The notes under the pieces are model-generated. The model ran no database searches, was not told the origin of the DNA, and saw only the letters and a program-made list of their open reading frames with translations. A program made the translations under genes and the position numbers. 33,992 nucleotides of DNA from a bacterium (GTDB taxonomy: Bacteria; Patescibacteriota; CG2-30-54-11): contig JAKQHK010000064.1 of NCBI GenBank assembly GCA_029573015.1, forward strand, positions 1 to 33,992, given 5' to 3'. How positions within the stretch are numbered: the stretch's first letter is position 1; each line of letters starts with the position of its first letter. Positions 1,887 to 24,965 of this stretch are shown piece by piece.

Positions 1887-1961
1887 GCCCCCATAGCTCA
1901 GTGGATAGAGCAGTGGTTTCCTAAACCATGTGCGCAGGTTCGATTCCTGCTGGGGGCACCA
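1887..1961 (+). tRNA. tRNA-Arg (anticodon CCT), CCA encoded
   Basis: Acceptor GCCCCCA/TGGGGGC, D arm AGCTCAGTGGATAGAGCA, anticodon arm GTGGT-TTCCTAA-ACCAT, T arm GCAGGTTCGATTCCTGC, 3' ACCA. Confidence 0.95.
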
Positions 1962-3597
1962 GACATGATTTGTCACCGTTAGCTTCGAGTGGAATGGCGA
2001 AAAGACAGGACAAAGTCGGTGTTCCACTAGCCAATTCATCATAGGTAGGTATCCCCTCAAAAAGGAGGCTAAAAACAGGCCCTTGATTGTGGGGTTTTCT
2101 TTTGTCTGACACCACTTCCGGGAGTTGTTCCACTATTTTTCTGGTGCGTTTCAAAAGTTGCTGTATATCATGCTTTTCCGAGTCGGGTTTGGCCAACTCG
2201 TCCCTGACTTTGGCTGTCTCGATCTCCAGAGCTTCTAGCTTGGCTTCTAGGGCTTGGATGGCTACGGGAGAGCTCAGGAGCACAATCTTGTCGGCAACAG
2301 CGGTTTTCTGGGCTTCTAGGGTCGCCAGATGCTTCTTTATCTTGGCTGAGTCGTCCACCTGTTCCTGTTTGCGGCTCTGCCACTCGTCCAGGACAGTCGC
2401 CTCGATCAGGTCGATCATCTCGGGAGCCAGGTGATAAGTTTCGGCAGTCCGAAAAGCCAGGTTCTCGAGGTCATCTTTTCGGTAGCCCTTGTACTTGTGA
2501 CCACGGCTGCAGTGGTAGGTCGGATATGAGACTCCATACTGCCCCTTGGGCGAGCTTCCCTTGAGCGCTTTGTGACAGATCGGGCAATGGACAAATCGCT
2601 TGAACGGGAACAGGGGATTGTGAGCATTGCGGTGGATGGCGCGAGGGACGGGTTGCACGTCTCTCAGAAGTTTGTAGCCACTGTCGGTCTTTTGAATAAA
2701 AAATCTACCTTTGTTGGCCTTGTTGTAGGTATCAATACTCACAAGGCCGTCAAAGGCCGCCTTGACCGGCTGATTGTTTGTCCACTTCTCACAAATGATA
2801 CCGGCGTACACGGTACAGAGCACCACTTGAGGGATAGCTCTCTCATCGAGAGGTTTGCCCTGCTTCTCCAGAATGATCCTGCCGGAGGAATCGCGCTGAC
2901 AGTAGTTGCGGCGTTTGAAACCCAGGGCTCTCAGTTTGTCAGCTATCACGGTGTCAGAGAAGCCAGCAGCACGCATCTCGAAAACCTTGATGACAAACTC
3001 GCCCTCCTCGGGATGGGGAGCCAGTACAACACGCCTGCCGTGCGGGGTCTCGATTTTGGTGTTGATGTATCCGAGTGGAGGCCTCCGGTTCCAGTAGCCG
3101 TAGCGGGCATAGATGATCTCGGCGCCCACAGTACGAGTGAGCATGACCGAAACTTCGTTATTTGCCTGATTTGCCCGCATCATCTCGGCATCACGGCTCG
3201 GATTGATCTTGCTCCAATCGTAGGCCATGCCCAGGTGCTCTAGCGTGTTGATACTTGGCTGGATATATCCGTAGGAATCAATTAGCTCTATACCGTGGGC
3301 TTCGAGGTCGAGCTTGATGTCCGTAAAGGAGTGACTACCTTTTCTGGTGAGGCGATCAATGTCACGGAATATGACAGCTTTGATGCCACGCTTGCTGTCT
3401 TTGATGTACGCCATCATCTCATCAAAGGCTGGCCGGGAGTCCTTGCGTCCAGAGTATGTCTCTTTGAACACTTTGGCGACTTCCAGCCGGTTGATCTCGG
3501 CAGTCCTCTGGCACTGGCGCTCTTGCTGGTCGAGGCTTTCACCTTCGTTGAGCTGTCTGAGGGAGGAGATACGGCAGTAGATCACAGCACGTTTCAT
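1921..3597 (-). CDS. Large serine recombinase (resolvase + recombinase + zinc ribbon)
   Basis: MKRAVIYCRISSLRQLNEGESLDQQERQC (catalytic Ser region), IFRDIDRLTRKG, CPICHKALKGSS...YHCSRGHKYKGYR zinc ribbon, C-terminal coiled coil. Confidence 0.93.
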   Translation of the reverse strand: MKRAVIYCRISSLRQLNEGESLDQQERQCQRTAEINRLEVAKVFKETYSGRKDSRPAFDEMMAYIKDSKRGIKAVIFRDIDRLTRKGSHSFTDIKLDLEAHGIELIDSYGYIQPSINTLEHLGMAYDWSKINPSRDAEMMRANQANNEVSVMLTRTVGAEIIYARYGYWNRRPPLGYINTKIETPHGRRVVLAPHPEEGEFVIKVFEMRAAGFSDTVIADKLRALGFKRRNYCQRDSSGRIILEKQGKPLDERAIPQVVLCTVYAGIICEKWTNNQPVKAAFDGLVSIDTYNKANKGRFFIQKTDSGYKLLRDVQPVPRAIHRNAHNPLFPFKRFVHCPICHKALKGSSPKGQYGVSYPTYHCSRGHKYKGYRKDDLENLAFRTAETYHLAPEMIDLIEATVLDEWQSRKQEQVDDSAKIKKHLATLEAQKTAVADKIVLLSSPVAIQALEAKLEALEIETAKVRDELAKPDSEKHDIQQLLKRTRKIVEQLPEVVSDKRKPHNQGPVFSLLFEGIPTYDELASGTPTLSCLFAIPLEANGDKSCLVPPAGIEPAHMV

Positions 3598-3609
3598 GGT
3601 TCACCTAAC

Positions 3610-3725
3610 ATAAAAGGACAACTTGGGGGCTGACAAGTAAAGACACAAAGCCTTCACTAACCCAAGTTGCCCTTTTATATCGGCAAGAGGTAATGAGACG
3701 AAAGCTTTGCATTTTACTTGTCAGC
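3610..3725 (-). promoter_or_regulatory. Candidate structured 5' leader: two interleaved long complementary segment pairs
   Basis: 3610-3627 pairs with 3661-3678 (18 bp, one G-U on the minus-strand RNA); 3629-3641 pairs with 3713-3725 (13 bp perfect); order A-B-A'-B'. Confidence 0.6.
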
Positions 3726-3902
3726 GGTCGCATTATACGGCTCTCTAGTATCATCATGCAACGCTCGTTCCTCGGTGAAGACAGAAAGAATAACCTGAGC
3801 CCACCTGCGGGATTCAACAAGCACGCGCTCAATTTCAGCATCGGATAAATGCTGAAATCGTTTGCCCAATACACCGCGTGCCTGTTGAATGGAAAGAGAC
3901 AT
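3714..3902 (-). CDS. Small hypothetical protein upstream of recombinase
   Basis: MSLSIQQARGVLGKRFQHLSDAEIERVLVESRRWAQVILSVFTEERALHDDTREPYNATADK; protein-like helical composition, co-oriented with the recombinase. Confidence 0.6.
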   Translation of the reverse strand: MSLSIQQARGVLGKRFQHLSDAEIERVLVESRRWAQVILSVFTEERALHDDTREPYNATADK

Positions 3903-3911
3903 ATTCGGAGC

Positions 3912-4451
3912 CTACTGTCGACAGCGGCTTAACCAAAAAACGCCACTGTCGCCAGCGGACGCACGCTCGAAAGACTCGCTCCTATCACTGATACGACCGG
4001 CAGTGTCGCTCGTGGTGTTTGCAGCGGAAATGCCCACCAAGAGTCCTGGTAAGGGCGAACGCTCAGAAGAAAGAGGAGGAAATGCAACGGAACCGAGGAG
4101 CGAGCTATAGGCGTGAAGGTCATCTCTTATTTGCCACTCTCTGTCTGGAAGGAATAGTGTCCTCGTTTGTTTTTGGTACTGCCGTATGACGCCCCTTCGT
4201 CGTCTTCGATCATTAAATGTAACATACCACGTTACCTTCCCCGCATTGCTATAAAGCGGGGAAGCAAAAATGACTCGTTCCAAAGATCGGTCGGCAATCG
4301 TTAGGTGAAGTGAAACGGAAGCGTGAGCAGGGAGTCCGATTAGCTGTTTTGCTTTTGATGATTGTGTCGTCTCCAGGCATCGGCGCCTGGAGCCTCCCCA
4401 TCGGTAGCCAGTCGTCCACCTTGTCAGTTTTAATTGAATAACCGTTTCCAT
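3912..4451 (-). CDS. Hypothetical protein, possibly in an operon with the recombinase
   Basis: ATG preceded by AGAGGAG SD on the minus strand; METVIQLKLTRW...; 179-codon open frame ending 10 nt before the next ORF. The C-terminal half looks low quality. Confidence 0.4.
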   Translation of the reverse strand: METVIQLKLTRWTTGYRWGGSRRRCLETTQSSKAKQLIGLPAHASVSLHLTIADRSLERVIFASPLYSNAGKVTWYVTFNDRRRRRGVIRQYQKQTRTLFLPDREWQIRDDLHAYSSLLGSVAFPPLSSERSPLPGLLVGISAANTTSDTAGRISDRSESFERASAGDSGVFWLSRCRQ

Positions 4452-4613: not shown

Positions 4614-5408
4614 TTACGCGCTAGACAGACTTTTCAATTTTTCGATATTGAGCGTGTAGAGTTCCGTTTTTCCCTGTCTGTGGTGGGTGAGGTAACTGTC
4701 GAGATCGAAATCCAGTCCTTCGAGTTTATCCCTGAGTTTTGACAGTGCATCCTTGGTATCGGACTCCTGGGGTAGGTCAGAGGTCGTGAACGTGGCAACA
4801 TCTGCTGCTATATTACTCTGATACTTGTGTGCGAGAAAAACAAAGCACTTGTATTGCAGGCTTTCCTCAGGTGAATACTTGTCGCTGTTGGTGCGTGCGT
4901 ACCTTCTGAGGACTATGCTTGTGCCGTTATCTCTCTTGAGCATACCGCCATTGGTATCTACCCACTCGACCGGCCCCAGCATGATCCTTTTCGCCTTGGG
5001 CTTTCCATACTTGGCAATCACCCACTGGAGCACTTTTTCGCTGACATTGGCAAGACTGACTGATACGCCAGGCTCCATGCTGTTTGGTTCGAGTCGCAGC
5101 TGGAGCTCGAGATATTTCGACTGCCAGTAGATCGACCAGTATTTGTCACTTGGAGGATTCCAGCTTTCCGGCTGGGACATGAAATCCAGATTGTCCCGAG
5201 AGCCAAAGTGTCTGATCTCCACAGCTTCAAGGTTGGTGGGGTCTCCCAGGACATACAGCGCTTTGGCTAGAGGCTCCATGTCCAGGAGATCATCATTCAG
5301 ATAGCCAAGACGACAGATGAGGTGCTGTGGCCGTCCCTGACGAATATGCTCATCGAGAATACGCTGCGCTACATCGCCAAGGTTGGGTGGGGTCATCGTC
5401 TCAGCCAT
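4614..5408 (-). CDS. Hypothetical protein (264 aa)
   Basis: Long ORF with protein-like composition, own downstream terminator; no family recognised. Confidence 0.8.
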   Translation of the reverse strand: MAETMTPPNLGDVAQRILDEHIRQGRPQHLICRLGYLNDDLLDMEPLAKALYVLGDPTNLEAVEIRHFGSRDNLDFMSQPESWNPPSDKYWSIYWQSKYLELQLRLEPNSMEPGVSVSLANVSEKVLQWVIAKYGKPKAKRIMLGPVEWVDTNGGMLKRDNGTSIVLRRYARTNSDKYSPEESLQYKCFVFLAHKYQSNIAADVATFTTSDLPQESDTKDALSKLRDKLEGLDFDLDSYLTHHRQGKTELYTLNIEKLKSLSSA

Positions 5409-5478
5409 AGGTTGCTTTCGAGTAAATATCCAAGTGCTACATTATAACTCGTTTACCGGCAAGCCGCCAAGACATTTA

Positions 5479-5508
5479 TTGCTTTTCGTGCTCGCTTAAA
5501 CCTATAAT
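5479..5508 (+). promoter_or_regulatory. Sigma70-type promoter for the leader RNA
   Basis: TTGCTT (5479-5484) - 18 bp - TATAAT (5503-5508); predicted start about 5515. Confidence 0.6.
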
Positions 5509-5514
5509 GAACCC

Positions 5515-5633
5515 GCACACTCTATAACCCATAGTCTACGAATCGCAGCCAAGGAGAAAGCAGGGAGTGTCTCTGCCAATTCTCTTTGGCTGCGGCTATG
5601 GAGAGTGTGCAAAGCAGGGGCACTCCTTTTTTT
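5515..5633 (+). ncRNA. Candidate structured leader RNA / attenuator (or small RNA) upstream of the Mrr-like gene
   Basis: Nested stems 5515-5523/5602-5610 (9 bp), 5529-5534/5596-5601 (6 bp), 5545-5558/5580-5593 (14 bp incl. one G-U), 5560-5565/5571-5576; alternative terminator 5603-5608/5620-5625 with T7 at 5627-5633. Confidence 0.6.
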
Positions 5634-5643
5634 GTGAGGAAAA

Positions 5644-6228
5644 ATGCTAGAAAAACACTCTCGCCAAGACCCGCTCCAATTACTCGTCGAGGCTTTACCC
5701 CCCTTGCTTTTGATGTATGGGTTATACCGCTTTTCAAAGAGCCATAATATCCAGTCTGCTATCGCAGAGACAACAGTGGTCTCTCTCATACTATGCGCCG
5801 TGTTGGTAGCACTGATTCTGGCATATCAGTACTGGAAGCGGCATGAGCAGCAAAAATATGGCATGGACAAGATCGACGTGATGACAGGCTTTGCTTTTCA
5901 GGACTATCTGGCTAACTTGTTTCGCGAACTGGGGTATCACATCACCAAGACACCCCACAGGGCTGACTATGGCTGCGACTTTATCATAGCTCGTGATGGC
6001 AAGAAGGCTGTCGTACAGGCCAAACGATCAAGTGATGTAATAAGCATAAAAGCCGTACAGGAAGCTATCGCAGCGAAAGAATATTATCGGACTGACTATG
6101 CAGCTGTGATCACAAACAACCGTTTTTCATCCAACGCCCTGCGAATTGCGGAAAAAACTGGAGTTATCTTAATCAGCCGGGAGAATCTGTTGAATCGAAT
6201 AAAAAAAGCATATAATCAAAAGGCATAA
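5644..6228 (+). CDS. Membrane-anchored Mrr-type restriction endonuclease domain protein
   Basis: Two N-terminal hydrophobic segments, then FAFQDYLANLFRELGYHITKTPHRADYGCDFIIARDGKKAVVQAKR (PD-(D/E)xK, Mrr_cat-like, D...QAK). Confidence 0.85.
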   Translation: MLEKHSRQDPLQLLVEALPPLLLMYGLYRFSKSHNIQSAIAETTVVSLILCAVLVALILAYQYWKRHEQQKYGMDKIDVMTGFAFQDYLANLFRELGYHITKTPHRADYGCDFIIARDGKKAVVQAKRSSDVISIKAVQEAIAAKEYYRTDYAAVITNNRFSSNALRIAEKTGVILISRENLLNRIKKAYNQKA

Positions 6229-6328
6229 TAGAAAGAATATCTACCTGCTGAAAACTGTCATATCACAAACTCGATACAGACACTGACAAACAAACCTCAA
6301 TGCACCATCTAACTCAAAGGAGATAAAC

Positions 6329-6592
6329 ATGGCAACATATGACACACAAGTCTTGCTTCAGCACCTAAATGATAAATGGCATGGCGTCAAATGCCCTCTA
6401 TGTCAAGCAGATAAATGGAATGTCTCTGATAATGTTTTCGAACTACGGCAATTTAATCAAGGTAACATGATAATCGGCGGAGTACCAATCGTCCCTGTTA
6501 TCCCGGTTACCTGCAGTAACTGCGGCAATACCGTGCTTGTTAACGCATTGATGACAAAAGCCATCACCCCTCCTACAAATAAGGAGGCTTAA
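6329..6592 (+). CDS. Small zinc-ribbon protein
   Basis: VKCPLCQADKW...VTCSNCGNTVLVN; SD AAAGGAG upstream. Confidence 0.8.
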   Translation: MATYDTQVLLQHLNDKWHGVKCPLCQADKWNVSDNVFELRQFNQGNMIIGGVPIVPVIPVTCSNCGNTVLVNALMTKAITPPTNKEA

Positions 6593-6593
6593 A

Positions 6594-7004
6594 ATGACAG
6601 CTCAAAAAACTGAACTAAAGGTTTCACAAGACTTTGAGCTATTACTGCCTCAACAACAAAAAGCTTATCCGATCTCAAAAGACGAATGGACTTTCTTAAA
6701 AGAGAAGGTTAAAACGATAAATAATTCATCAAACATCTATCATACGATCGGTTCAGTGTTCTTGGGTATCACGGGTTCAGCTCTCTTGGCTGTATTCACA
6801 TATGACAAACCAAATCCGATCACTATTGAATACAACACTAGAATTTTGATCACGATTTCCGCATTTATCGTTTCTTTAATCTGTGGAATCTGCTTACTTG
6901 TCTTTGGTGGGAAGCAAAAACAACTGCAAGAAATAAGTGCAGCAGAAGTAATTCAGCATATGGAGCTAATTGAAAAAAGATATGCGGCTGAGGAAGACAG
7001 CTAA
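6594..7004 (+). CDS. Hypothetical protein with two predicted TM helices
   Basis: Starts 2 nt after the previous stop; hydrophobic segments IGSVFLGITGSALLAVF and ILITISAFIVSLICGICLLVF. Confidence 0.75.
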   Translation: MTAQKTELKVSQDFELLLPQQQKAYPISKDEWTFLKEKVKTINNSSNIYHTIGSVFLGITGSALLAVFTYDKPNPITIEYNTRILITISAFIVSLICGICLLVFGGKQKQLQEISAAEVIQHMELIEKRYAAEEDS

Positions 7005-7054
7005 TTTAGCTCAACCTTTACGTAGCAGCGATAATTATTGGTATAGGTGCTATC

Positions 7055-8149
7055 ATGAAAAAAACTGTCATCTTTCTGACTTGCTTTGCCGTTTTAAGTA
7101 TCAGCCTATCTGGTTGCACCTATCAAAGCAAACCAAGTGAGTACAAAACTAACAACGAAAACTTCAAACAATCTATATCGTTGCTGCATGAATCAATCGA
7201 CCTATCTAACCCGGAAGGTAGTGAGAATTTATCTCAATTCGAATTATCAAAAGAGACAGAAGATACAATTCTGGCCGACCTCAAAGAAGGAATCAGGCTA
7301 AGCAAAATTGTGAGTAACGAATACCTGGACTATATACACCCTGAACTCAACAACTATTATCGGAATAAGCTAATTAAAGGTAGCCAATCATACTATGATG
7401 GTCTACTGGCGGCTGATGCCAATCAGATCTCATCATCTATCACGAAACAAATGCAAGGCAGCCAGCTCCTGAATGATTGGCTCACATGGTGGAATAAAAA
7501 TAATGATACTGTCGGCGACAAGGTGTTTGGCGATTATGTAATTAAGAATATTCTTCAGTACTTAATGTATATAGGAATAATCAATATTATTTTTGCATTT
7601 GTCTGGAAATGGGCTGTCGTCCTACCTAGCGCAATCGTGCTGACCTTAGCTAAATTTTCTCGAGGCATTTTGCTTGTGAGGGCTGCAGGAGCCTTCTGCC
7701 TTGTTTCACTGACCGCATCTGTAACGCTTAACGCAATGGAGAATACAAACAGCGATCTGTTATGGTTTTTCTATCCTGTTGTTGGCTCTTTTGTTTTATT
7801 CATGGGTTTCGCTGGTAACTCGTATGAGCAGCGAAAAAAAGCGCGGATAAACGGTGATTTTACGCTTATGGCTCAACTTGAAGCCGATGCATGGTTTGAT
7901 GTCATAATCACATTCGGATCACTACTCCTTTTTGTTGCTATGCTTTTTCTCCCTACAATCATCGAAAACCCTGCTACAAATTGGCTCCTAAGTGTTGTCA
8001 CCTGGGCATATAAGTTACCCATCATTGGATTCCTTCTTGGAATGGGTGGAGTTGTTTTTATGCTAAACACAATGTTTTATGGTCTATTTATGATGGCGAT
8101 ACTGTTCGGATTGTTGTACTCAAAAATTCATAAGCCTAGGGTGGAATAG
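7055..8149 (+). CDS. Putative lipoprotein / multi-TM membrane protein
   Basis: Lipobox-like LSISLSGC at the N-terminus, soluble domain, then several TM helices. Confidence 0.75.
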   Translation: MKKTVIFLTCFAVLSISLSGCTYQSKPSEYKTNNENFKQSISLLHESIDLSNPEGSENLSQFELSKETEDTILADLKEGIRLSKIVSNEYLDYIHPELNNYYRNKLIKGSQSYYDGLLAADANQISSSITKQMQGSQLLNDWLTWWNKNNDTVGDKVFGDYVIKNILQYLMYIGIINIIFAFVWKWAVVLPSAIVLTLAKFSRGILLVRAAGAFCLVSLTASVTLNAMENTNSDLLWFFYPVVGSFVLFMGFAGNSYEQRKKARINGDFTLMAQLEADAWFDVIITFGSLLLFVAMLFLPTIIENPATNWLLSVVTWAYKLPIIGFLLGMGGVVFMLNTMFYGLFMMAILFGLLYSKIHKPRVE

Positions 8150-24732: not shown

Positions 24733-24837
24733 TACATTCGTAAACGTATGATACACATACGTTACCACAGAGCATACAGAGGTTTGTGCATCGCAATCGG
24801 TCGGGTTGATTTCTCTGGACGCTCTGCTATACTTTAT

Positions 24838-24943
24838 TAGCTTGGGGGTGTCCGCCTTCGTCCTTCGACTTAGCTCAGGACTTCGGCGGACTGAGAATAC
24901 ACTCCTCGAACCTGATCTGGATCATGCCAGCGTAAGGGAAAGC
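24838..24943 (+). promoter_or_regulatory. TPP (THI-box) riboswitch
   Basis: GGGGGTGTCC...GGACTGAGAATACACTCCTCGAACCTGATCTGGATCATGCCAGCGTAAGGGAAAG; promoter TTGATT-16-TATACT upstream. Confidence 0.95.
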
Positions 24944-24965
24944 CGTTTCGACCAGGACACTACAG

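Follow-up and report, generated by a model that had tools for sequence, protein, structure and literature searches.

A candidate attenuator-like leader RNA with interleaved helices upstream of a serine integrase gene in Patescibacteria

The C4 antisense RNA of P1/P7-like phages is encoded on the same strand as its target and has loops complementary to the mRNA just downstream. In the repZ and repA leaders, long-range pairing joins a hairpin loop to sequence just upstream of the gene start, and a leader ORF lies nearby. Patescibacteria are tiny-genome bacteria, mostly uncultured, and the silencing and mobilisation of integrative elements within them have, to our knowledge, been little studied. 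Among mobile elements elsewhere, Tn916 is described as controlled by transcriptional attenuation that is relieved by translation inhibitors (PMC9154091). The countertranscript attenuator of pT181 is among the work cited in PMC10724649, as are, by title, the pseudoknot leaders of ColIb-P9 repZ and IncL/M repA. The STAXI motif is a pseudoknot RNA found near integrase, antirestriction and other DNA-handling genes (PMC2864571). Our search of open-licence papers returned nothing on integrases, tRNA targets or regulatory RNAs of Patescibacteria, and no earlier description of a leader such as the one reported here.

The window, by which we mean the whole stretch of 33,992 nucleotides analysed, comes from a draft genome that is 69% complete. 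A sequence-only reading had noted two interleaved complementary pairs ahead of a recombinase gene and proposed that they form a pseudoknot, or two mutually exclusive folds, in the transcript. An inverted-repeat search recovered both pairs exactly where that reading had placed them, pair A joining 3610-3627 to 3661-3678 (18 nt, 1 mismatch) and pair B joining 3629-3641 to 3713-3725 (13 nt, perfect). The pairs do interleave, in the order B'-A'-B-A on the minus strand, and the mismatch in pair A, which reads as A.C on the plus strand, becomes G.U on the minus strand. A small ORF (3714-3902, minus strand) has its TAA stop within the arm at 3713-3725, and the integrase ATG (3597) lies 12-13 nt past the end of arm A. 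Folding extends the B stem inward by 13 further pairs, 3 of them G-U, with one bulged C (3700-3712/3643-3655), and the A stem extends to 21 pairs (3661-3681/3607-3627), leaving one nucleotide (3628) between B and A. The leader is most likely an on/off switch for the integrase. More specifically, we give roughly an even chance, judging from sequence, that its arms are parts of a cis-acting transcription attenuator leader for the integrase gene of a tRNA-integrated element. The features of the locus are as follows.

1887-1961, plus strand: tRNA-Arg(CCT), probable attachment site; the integrases of relatives also abut tRNA genes
1921-3597, minus strand: large serine integrase, 558 aa, downstream of the leader (Pfam Resolvase, E 1.3e-17; PHROG integrase, E 6e-42)
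3601-3606, minus strand: integrase Shine-Dalgarno sequence AGGTGA, predicted to be buried once helix A forms
3607-3725, minus strand: leader RNA, 119 nt, from the predicted +1 at 3725 through the U-tract (folding z -6.14), with an architecture common to ten relatives
3607-3627, minus strand: arm A, 3' arm of helix A, GC-rich CCCAAGTTGTCC (3627-3616) and then U-rich UUUUAUGUU (3615-3607)
3629-3641, minus strand: arm B, 3' arm of hairpin B, from the inverted-repeat search
3643-3655, minus strand: arm C, inner 3' arm, from folding; the bulged C is 3642
3661-3681, minus strand: arm A', 5' arm of helix A, placed in the apical loop of hairpin B/C
3700-3712, minus strand: arm C', inner 5' arm of hairpin B, 13 pairs with 3643-3655 including 3 G-U, from folding
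3713-3725, minus strand: arm B', 5' arm of hairpin B, with its perfect 13-bp partner at 3629-3641
3714-3902, minus strand: small ORF, 62 aa, member of a family encoded upstream of serine recombinases in Patescibacteria (profile E 1.6e-7)
3732-3737, minus strand: TATAAT, -10 box of the leader's predicted promoter, an exact match 6 nt upstream of B'; the -35 is weak

A chance origin of the arms was ruled out by simulations and shuffles. Three inverted repeats with scores of 13-15 lie within 280 nt upstream of the window integrase, whereas ten Markov simulations of the 34-kb window yielded two of at least 13 overall (∼0.2 per window) and none of at least 15. The interleaved pair as a whole scored 75.5, against 38-45.5 for its own shuffles and 54.5 for the best shuffle of any locus among 126-155 homologous upstream regions, and no other of 83 loci was as strongly structured as the window leader. 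Insertion of a repeat or MITE was also rejected: the region is single-copy in its own genome and had no credible DNA match in 192 relatives.

A survey of 127, and then 155, regions upstream of serine recombinases identified ten relatives that keep the architecture but differ in sequence (∼155 loci in all). Their shared order is a TATAAT-like box, B', an inner stem, A' in the apical loop, B, 0-7 nt, A and a U-tract. The window and seven relatives (L149, L022, L016, L199, L184, L216 and L244) scored 52-75.5, and shuffling the same loci gave scores that were mostly under 49, apart from one maximum of 53 and one of 54.5; L149, which belongs with another small-ORF family, has the same interleaved order in a different sequence. 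Three lower-scoring loci were included because the full architecture is present: L246 (47, with each of its 40 own shuffles scoring lower), L217 (42) and L213 (6-nt gap; 49 in a stricter descriptor). Since members were picked by complementarity, so that pairing within B and A is partly there by construction, the independent evidence consists only of the box, the U-tract, the C stem, the strand bias and the changes between related loci, the first three being features unused in selecting most members. The inner C stem is present in 11/11 loci. Two-sided changes were found in several B pairs, and also in A pairs, among L016, L022 and L216, whose integrases are 57-59% identical, and in several B pairs between L213 and L217 (integrases 51% identical). 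The sequence-only reading had held that a lack of conservation or covariation would tell against it; relatives show both conservation and compensatory changes. The first relatives examined, ∼37% identical and with a small ORF overlapping the integrase start, are the closest ones and have no leader, so to conclude from them that there is no conservation would have been wrong. Presence of the leader did not track the integrase tree (10 changes, compared with 10.7 for shuffled labels).

The leader has a predicted promoter of its own. A TATAAT-like box with at most one mismatch ends 4-9 nt before B' in 9/11 leaders (background 5.5%, p 2e-10); it is exactly TATAAT in seven of the eleven, the window included, and -35 boxes are weak throughout. 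The position of the window box (3737-3732) accordingly puts the predicted +1 on the first base of B' (3725). At the other end, a U-tract follows A in 10/11 leaders (background 6.9%), giving a GC-rich helix and then a U-tract ahead of the gene start, with an unusually long hairpin loop. In the window this loop is 33 nt, long for an intrinsic terminator, and the U-tract UUUUAUGUU is interrupted; a terminator scan with loops restricted to 3-8 did not call helix A.

That the element acts as RNA is well supported by sequence comparison. With scoring that is strand-symmetric and penalises both mismatches equally, G-U outnumbers A-C in the stems 13:0 on the sense strand across the 11 loci, which argues for a transcribed RNA. 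The window leader likewise folds with a z of -6.14 on the minus, integrase-sense strand against -2.99 on the plus strand, in keeping with the earlier proposal of a transcribed structure on the recombinase strand. Leader-less relatives do carry operator-like repeats near their promoters, as would be expected if the arms were DNA-level operator or recombination sites, yet this reading is highly improbable given the 13:0 ratio, the folding asymmetry between strands and the placement of the probable att site in the tRNA, at the opposite end of the integrase gene. Rfam covariance-model searches with the leader and five relatives' leaders gave no family at gathering score, STAXI and C4 included, and a group I intron or any other Rfam family was set aside for the same six sequences. 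A guide RNA directed at the tRNA target was also rejected, the words that leaders have in common with their own tRNA being no longer than those with other members' tRNAs.

Because helix A followed directly by U's reads as a terminator, we favour attenuation, with the B/C hairpin as antiterminator, over a pseudoknot switch, C4-like antisense action in trans or coupling to the small ORF. Under attenuation, transcription would begin at the first base of B' (3725), and B' and C' would pair with C and B to give a long 5' hairpin with A' in the apical loop and with A, carrying the U-tract, directly 3' of the hairpin. While this hairpin stands, A' would be out of A's reach (the 3' linker is a few nt and the stem ∼26 bp), no terminator would form, the integrase Shine-Dalgarno sequence would be partly free and the gene would be on. 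If the hairpin were prevented, the GC-rich A-A' helix and its U-tract would terminate transcription, switching the gene off, and in the window fold A would additionally bury the Shine-Dalgarno sequence. We observe the arms, the box, the U-tract, the strand and the recurrence, and infer termination, the exclusivity of the folds and the identity of the on-state. The loop of hairpin B encloses the 5' half of helix A, so the two folds would be topologically exclusive; moreover, only a few nt separate the 3' end of A' from the top of a ∼26-bp stem, and A adjoins the base of that stem, a geometry from which we expect helix A and the complete B/C hairpin to be incompatible.

Folding calculations are consistent with two alternative states. 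In growing transcripts of the window leader, B dominates (0.99 at 3624-3618) until A is complete, after which A prevails (0.97), and the nested folds A and B were alternatives in 6/6 members modelled; hairpin B/C is as stable as fold A, or more so, in several members. At most positions of the Shine-Dalgarno sequence the unpaired probability is near 0 in fold A and about 0.6 with B imposed. The two exclusive folds of the sequence-only reading are thus plausible, fold A burying the integrase Shine-Dalgarno sequence in the window and fold B partly freeing it. That reading did not remark on the U-tract right after A, present in 10/11 loci, which indicates transcription termination at least as much as control of translation. 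A related arrangement would have B, without the inner C stem, and A stack coaxially as a pseudoknot beside the ribosome-binding site and switch integrase translation, as in repZ-type plasmids. The interleaved order and the 0-7 nt B-A junction of all members would permit such stacking, A ends 2-29 nt from the start codon, and the Shine-Dalgarno sequence is buried in the window fold A. We nevertheless regard a translational pseudoknot as unlikely: given the conserved inner C stem, a full pseudoknot is implausible on steric grounds, the presence of a U-tract after A goes unexplained, and the 2 to 29 nt between A and the start codon is a variable distance.

The stop codon within B' in the window raises a further reading, in which a ribosome ending there blocks hairpin B and lets fold A form. 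Blocking 3706-3734 in folding calculations does leave fold A at 0.97. This translation-coupled attenuator is nonetheless improbable, because the small-ORF stop of L149 comes after A', because in the other leader loci where the small ORF was found its end lies between 70 and ∼1100 nt ahead of the integrase, in most of them about 200-1100 nt, and because the small ORF contains the -10 box that belongs to the leader itself. The coupling to the upstream ORF that had been suggested from the window does not therefore generalise: the small ORF ends at no conserved place in leader loci, and in 9/11 members a TATAAT-like box of the leader's own stands 4-9 nt ahead of where the leader begins. As to what might act on an attenuator, no ligand, protein or antisense promoter was identified for the leader, and a countertranscript attenuator was rejected for want of a conserved TATAAT-like box on the opposite strand, the window copy having none at all.

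The 62-aa small ORF is, on the strength of its family profile, a real gene. It had no match to the profile of the first small-ORF family and matched the second. Its coding sequence contains a nested hairpin (3812-3827/3875-3890 and 3832-3841/3849-3858, minus strand) of 16 bp with one G-U plus 10 bp, beginning 12 nt past the start codon, and the surrounding 150 nt have a z of -3.6. Just upstream of the ORF, the direct repeat CCGCTGKCGACAG occurs at about 3915-3927 and 3945-3957, 30 nt apart; each repeat contains the near-palindrome CTGKCGACAG, and the two are a likely operator pair. In the leader-less Patescibacteria family (L003-L111), a small ORF of ∼55 aa (MGRLKGSKNK...LSTEERIRFLANLIVDRIIEDQ) is nearly universal and overlaps or adjoins the integrase start.

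The named relatives of the integrase come almost entirely from Patescibacteria MAGs, and nearly all of those scanned adjoin a tRNA gene. No relative above 39% identity to the window integrase was found, and viral, phage and plasmid searches with the integrase or the small ORF returned no close relatives. At 1921-1961 the integrase frame overlaps the tRNA-Arg gene, as it does in several relatives (L003, L004 and L017), so that the last residues are encoded by the tRNA antisense; excision would alter the integrase C terminus. No second att copy was found within the window.

The window contains a second copy of the leader, on the plus strand and ahead of a nuclease gene.

5503-5508, plus strand: TATAAT, -10 box of the second copy, 6 nt upstream of arm B'
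5515-5633, plus strand: second leader copy (descriptor score 59, shuffle maximum 45.5; folding z -6.81)
5515-5523, 5529-5534 + 5544-5558 and 5564-5576, plus strand: 5' part of the second copy, arms B', C' and A' respectively
5580-5594 + 5596-5601, 5602-5610, 5614-5626 and 5627-5633, plus strand: 3' part of the second copy, arms C, B and A and the U7 tract respectively
5644-6228, plus strand: Mrr-like nuclease gene downstream of the second leader (Mrr_cat, E 1.9e-24)

The stricter descriptor, which combines box, B, A and U-tract, was scanned over 2.5 Mb, both strands counted, and returned 13 distinct loci at 47 or above; shuffles of 4.1 Mb peaked at 45.5. Within the 861 kb scanned of the leader's own genome, only the two window leaders exceeded the shuffle maximum. 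Leaders at L168 and L249 likewise stand upstream of non-integrase ORFs. Together with the second copy, these leaders ahead of other genes make the leader look like a module of these elements rather than an appendage of the integrase. The hairpin of the second copy exceeds fold A in stability by ∼20 kcal/mol, so that a strong effector, or else a kinetic contribution, would be required for switching. An A' held in the apical loop of a very stable hairpin would be hard for A to reach in cis, and this suits a C4-like same-strand antisense RNA, in which a processed 5' hairpin, with A' exposed in the loop, would base-pair in trans with A of other integrase transcripts and block expression; A and A' differ between the two window copies, so no cross-talk would be expected. 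We judge this mode of action quite unlikely, however, since our sequence-based analysis gave no sign of processing or of a free hairpin, the U-tract better suits termination in cis and Rfam gave no C4 match.

The second copy lies within an island (4614-8149) that encodes the Mrr-like nuclease along with a CxxC protein, ORFs of membrane or lipoprotein-like character and a 264-aa ORF. The nuclease has a membrane segment at its N terminus, and its best PADLOC match is the Mrr-like part of ZorD. Elsewhere in the window, a TPP riboswitch above gathering score (24834-24956, plus strand) precedes an ABC transporter-like operon.

We tentatively propose, at somewhat below even probability, that these leaders represent an undescribed class of modular leader RNA in integrative elements of Patescibacteria, in which a 5' hairpin traps the 5' half of a terminator in its apical loop and switching occurs by topology and not through shared bases. 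Such RNAs would resemble orphan riboswitches and control integrases together with other element genes, for example the Mrr-like nuclease. A compact RNA module with defined ends, found before diverse integrases and at least one nuclease gene, offers a testable entry point. If the topological switch is real, it would be an unusual attenuator design, and its trigger would reveal when these elements excise.

Of the described systems, pT181-type and Tn916 attenuators share with the leader a promoter-proximal position and a terminator helix with a competing helix upstream of a mobile-element gene. Unlike in those attenuators, the competing helices of the leader have no bases in common and exclude each other by topology; no countertranscript promoter or conserved leader-peptide coupling was found for the leader, and its hosts are Patescibacteria. 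As in the repZ and repA leaders, a loop would pair with sequence just upstream of the gene start and a leader ORF lies nearby. In those leaders, however, a short loop pseudoknot is combined with an antisense RNA, and the leader peptide is obligatory; helix A here is 10-21 bp long with a U-tract behind it, and coupling to a leader peptide is not conserved. STAXI is similarly an RNA close to DNA-handling genes, but is a small pseudoknot in 2-3 tandem repeats where the leader is single and ∼80-130 nt long. Like C4, finally, the leader is a same-strand RNA whose loop is complementary to mRNA just downstream; unlike C4, it has one loop, one immediately adjacent target and a U-tract.
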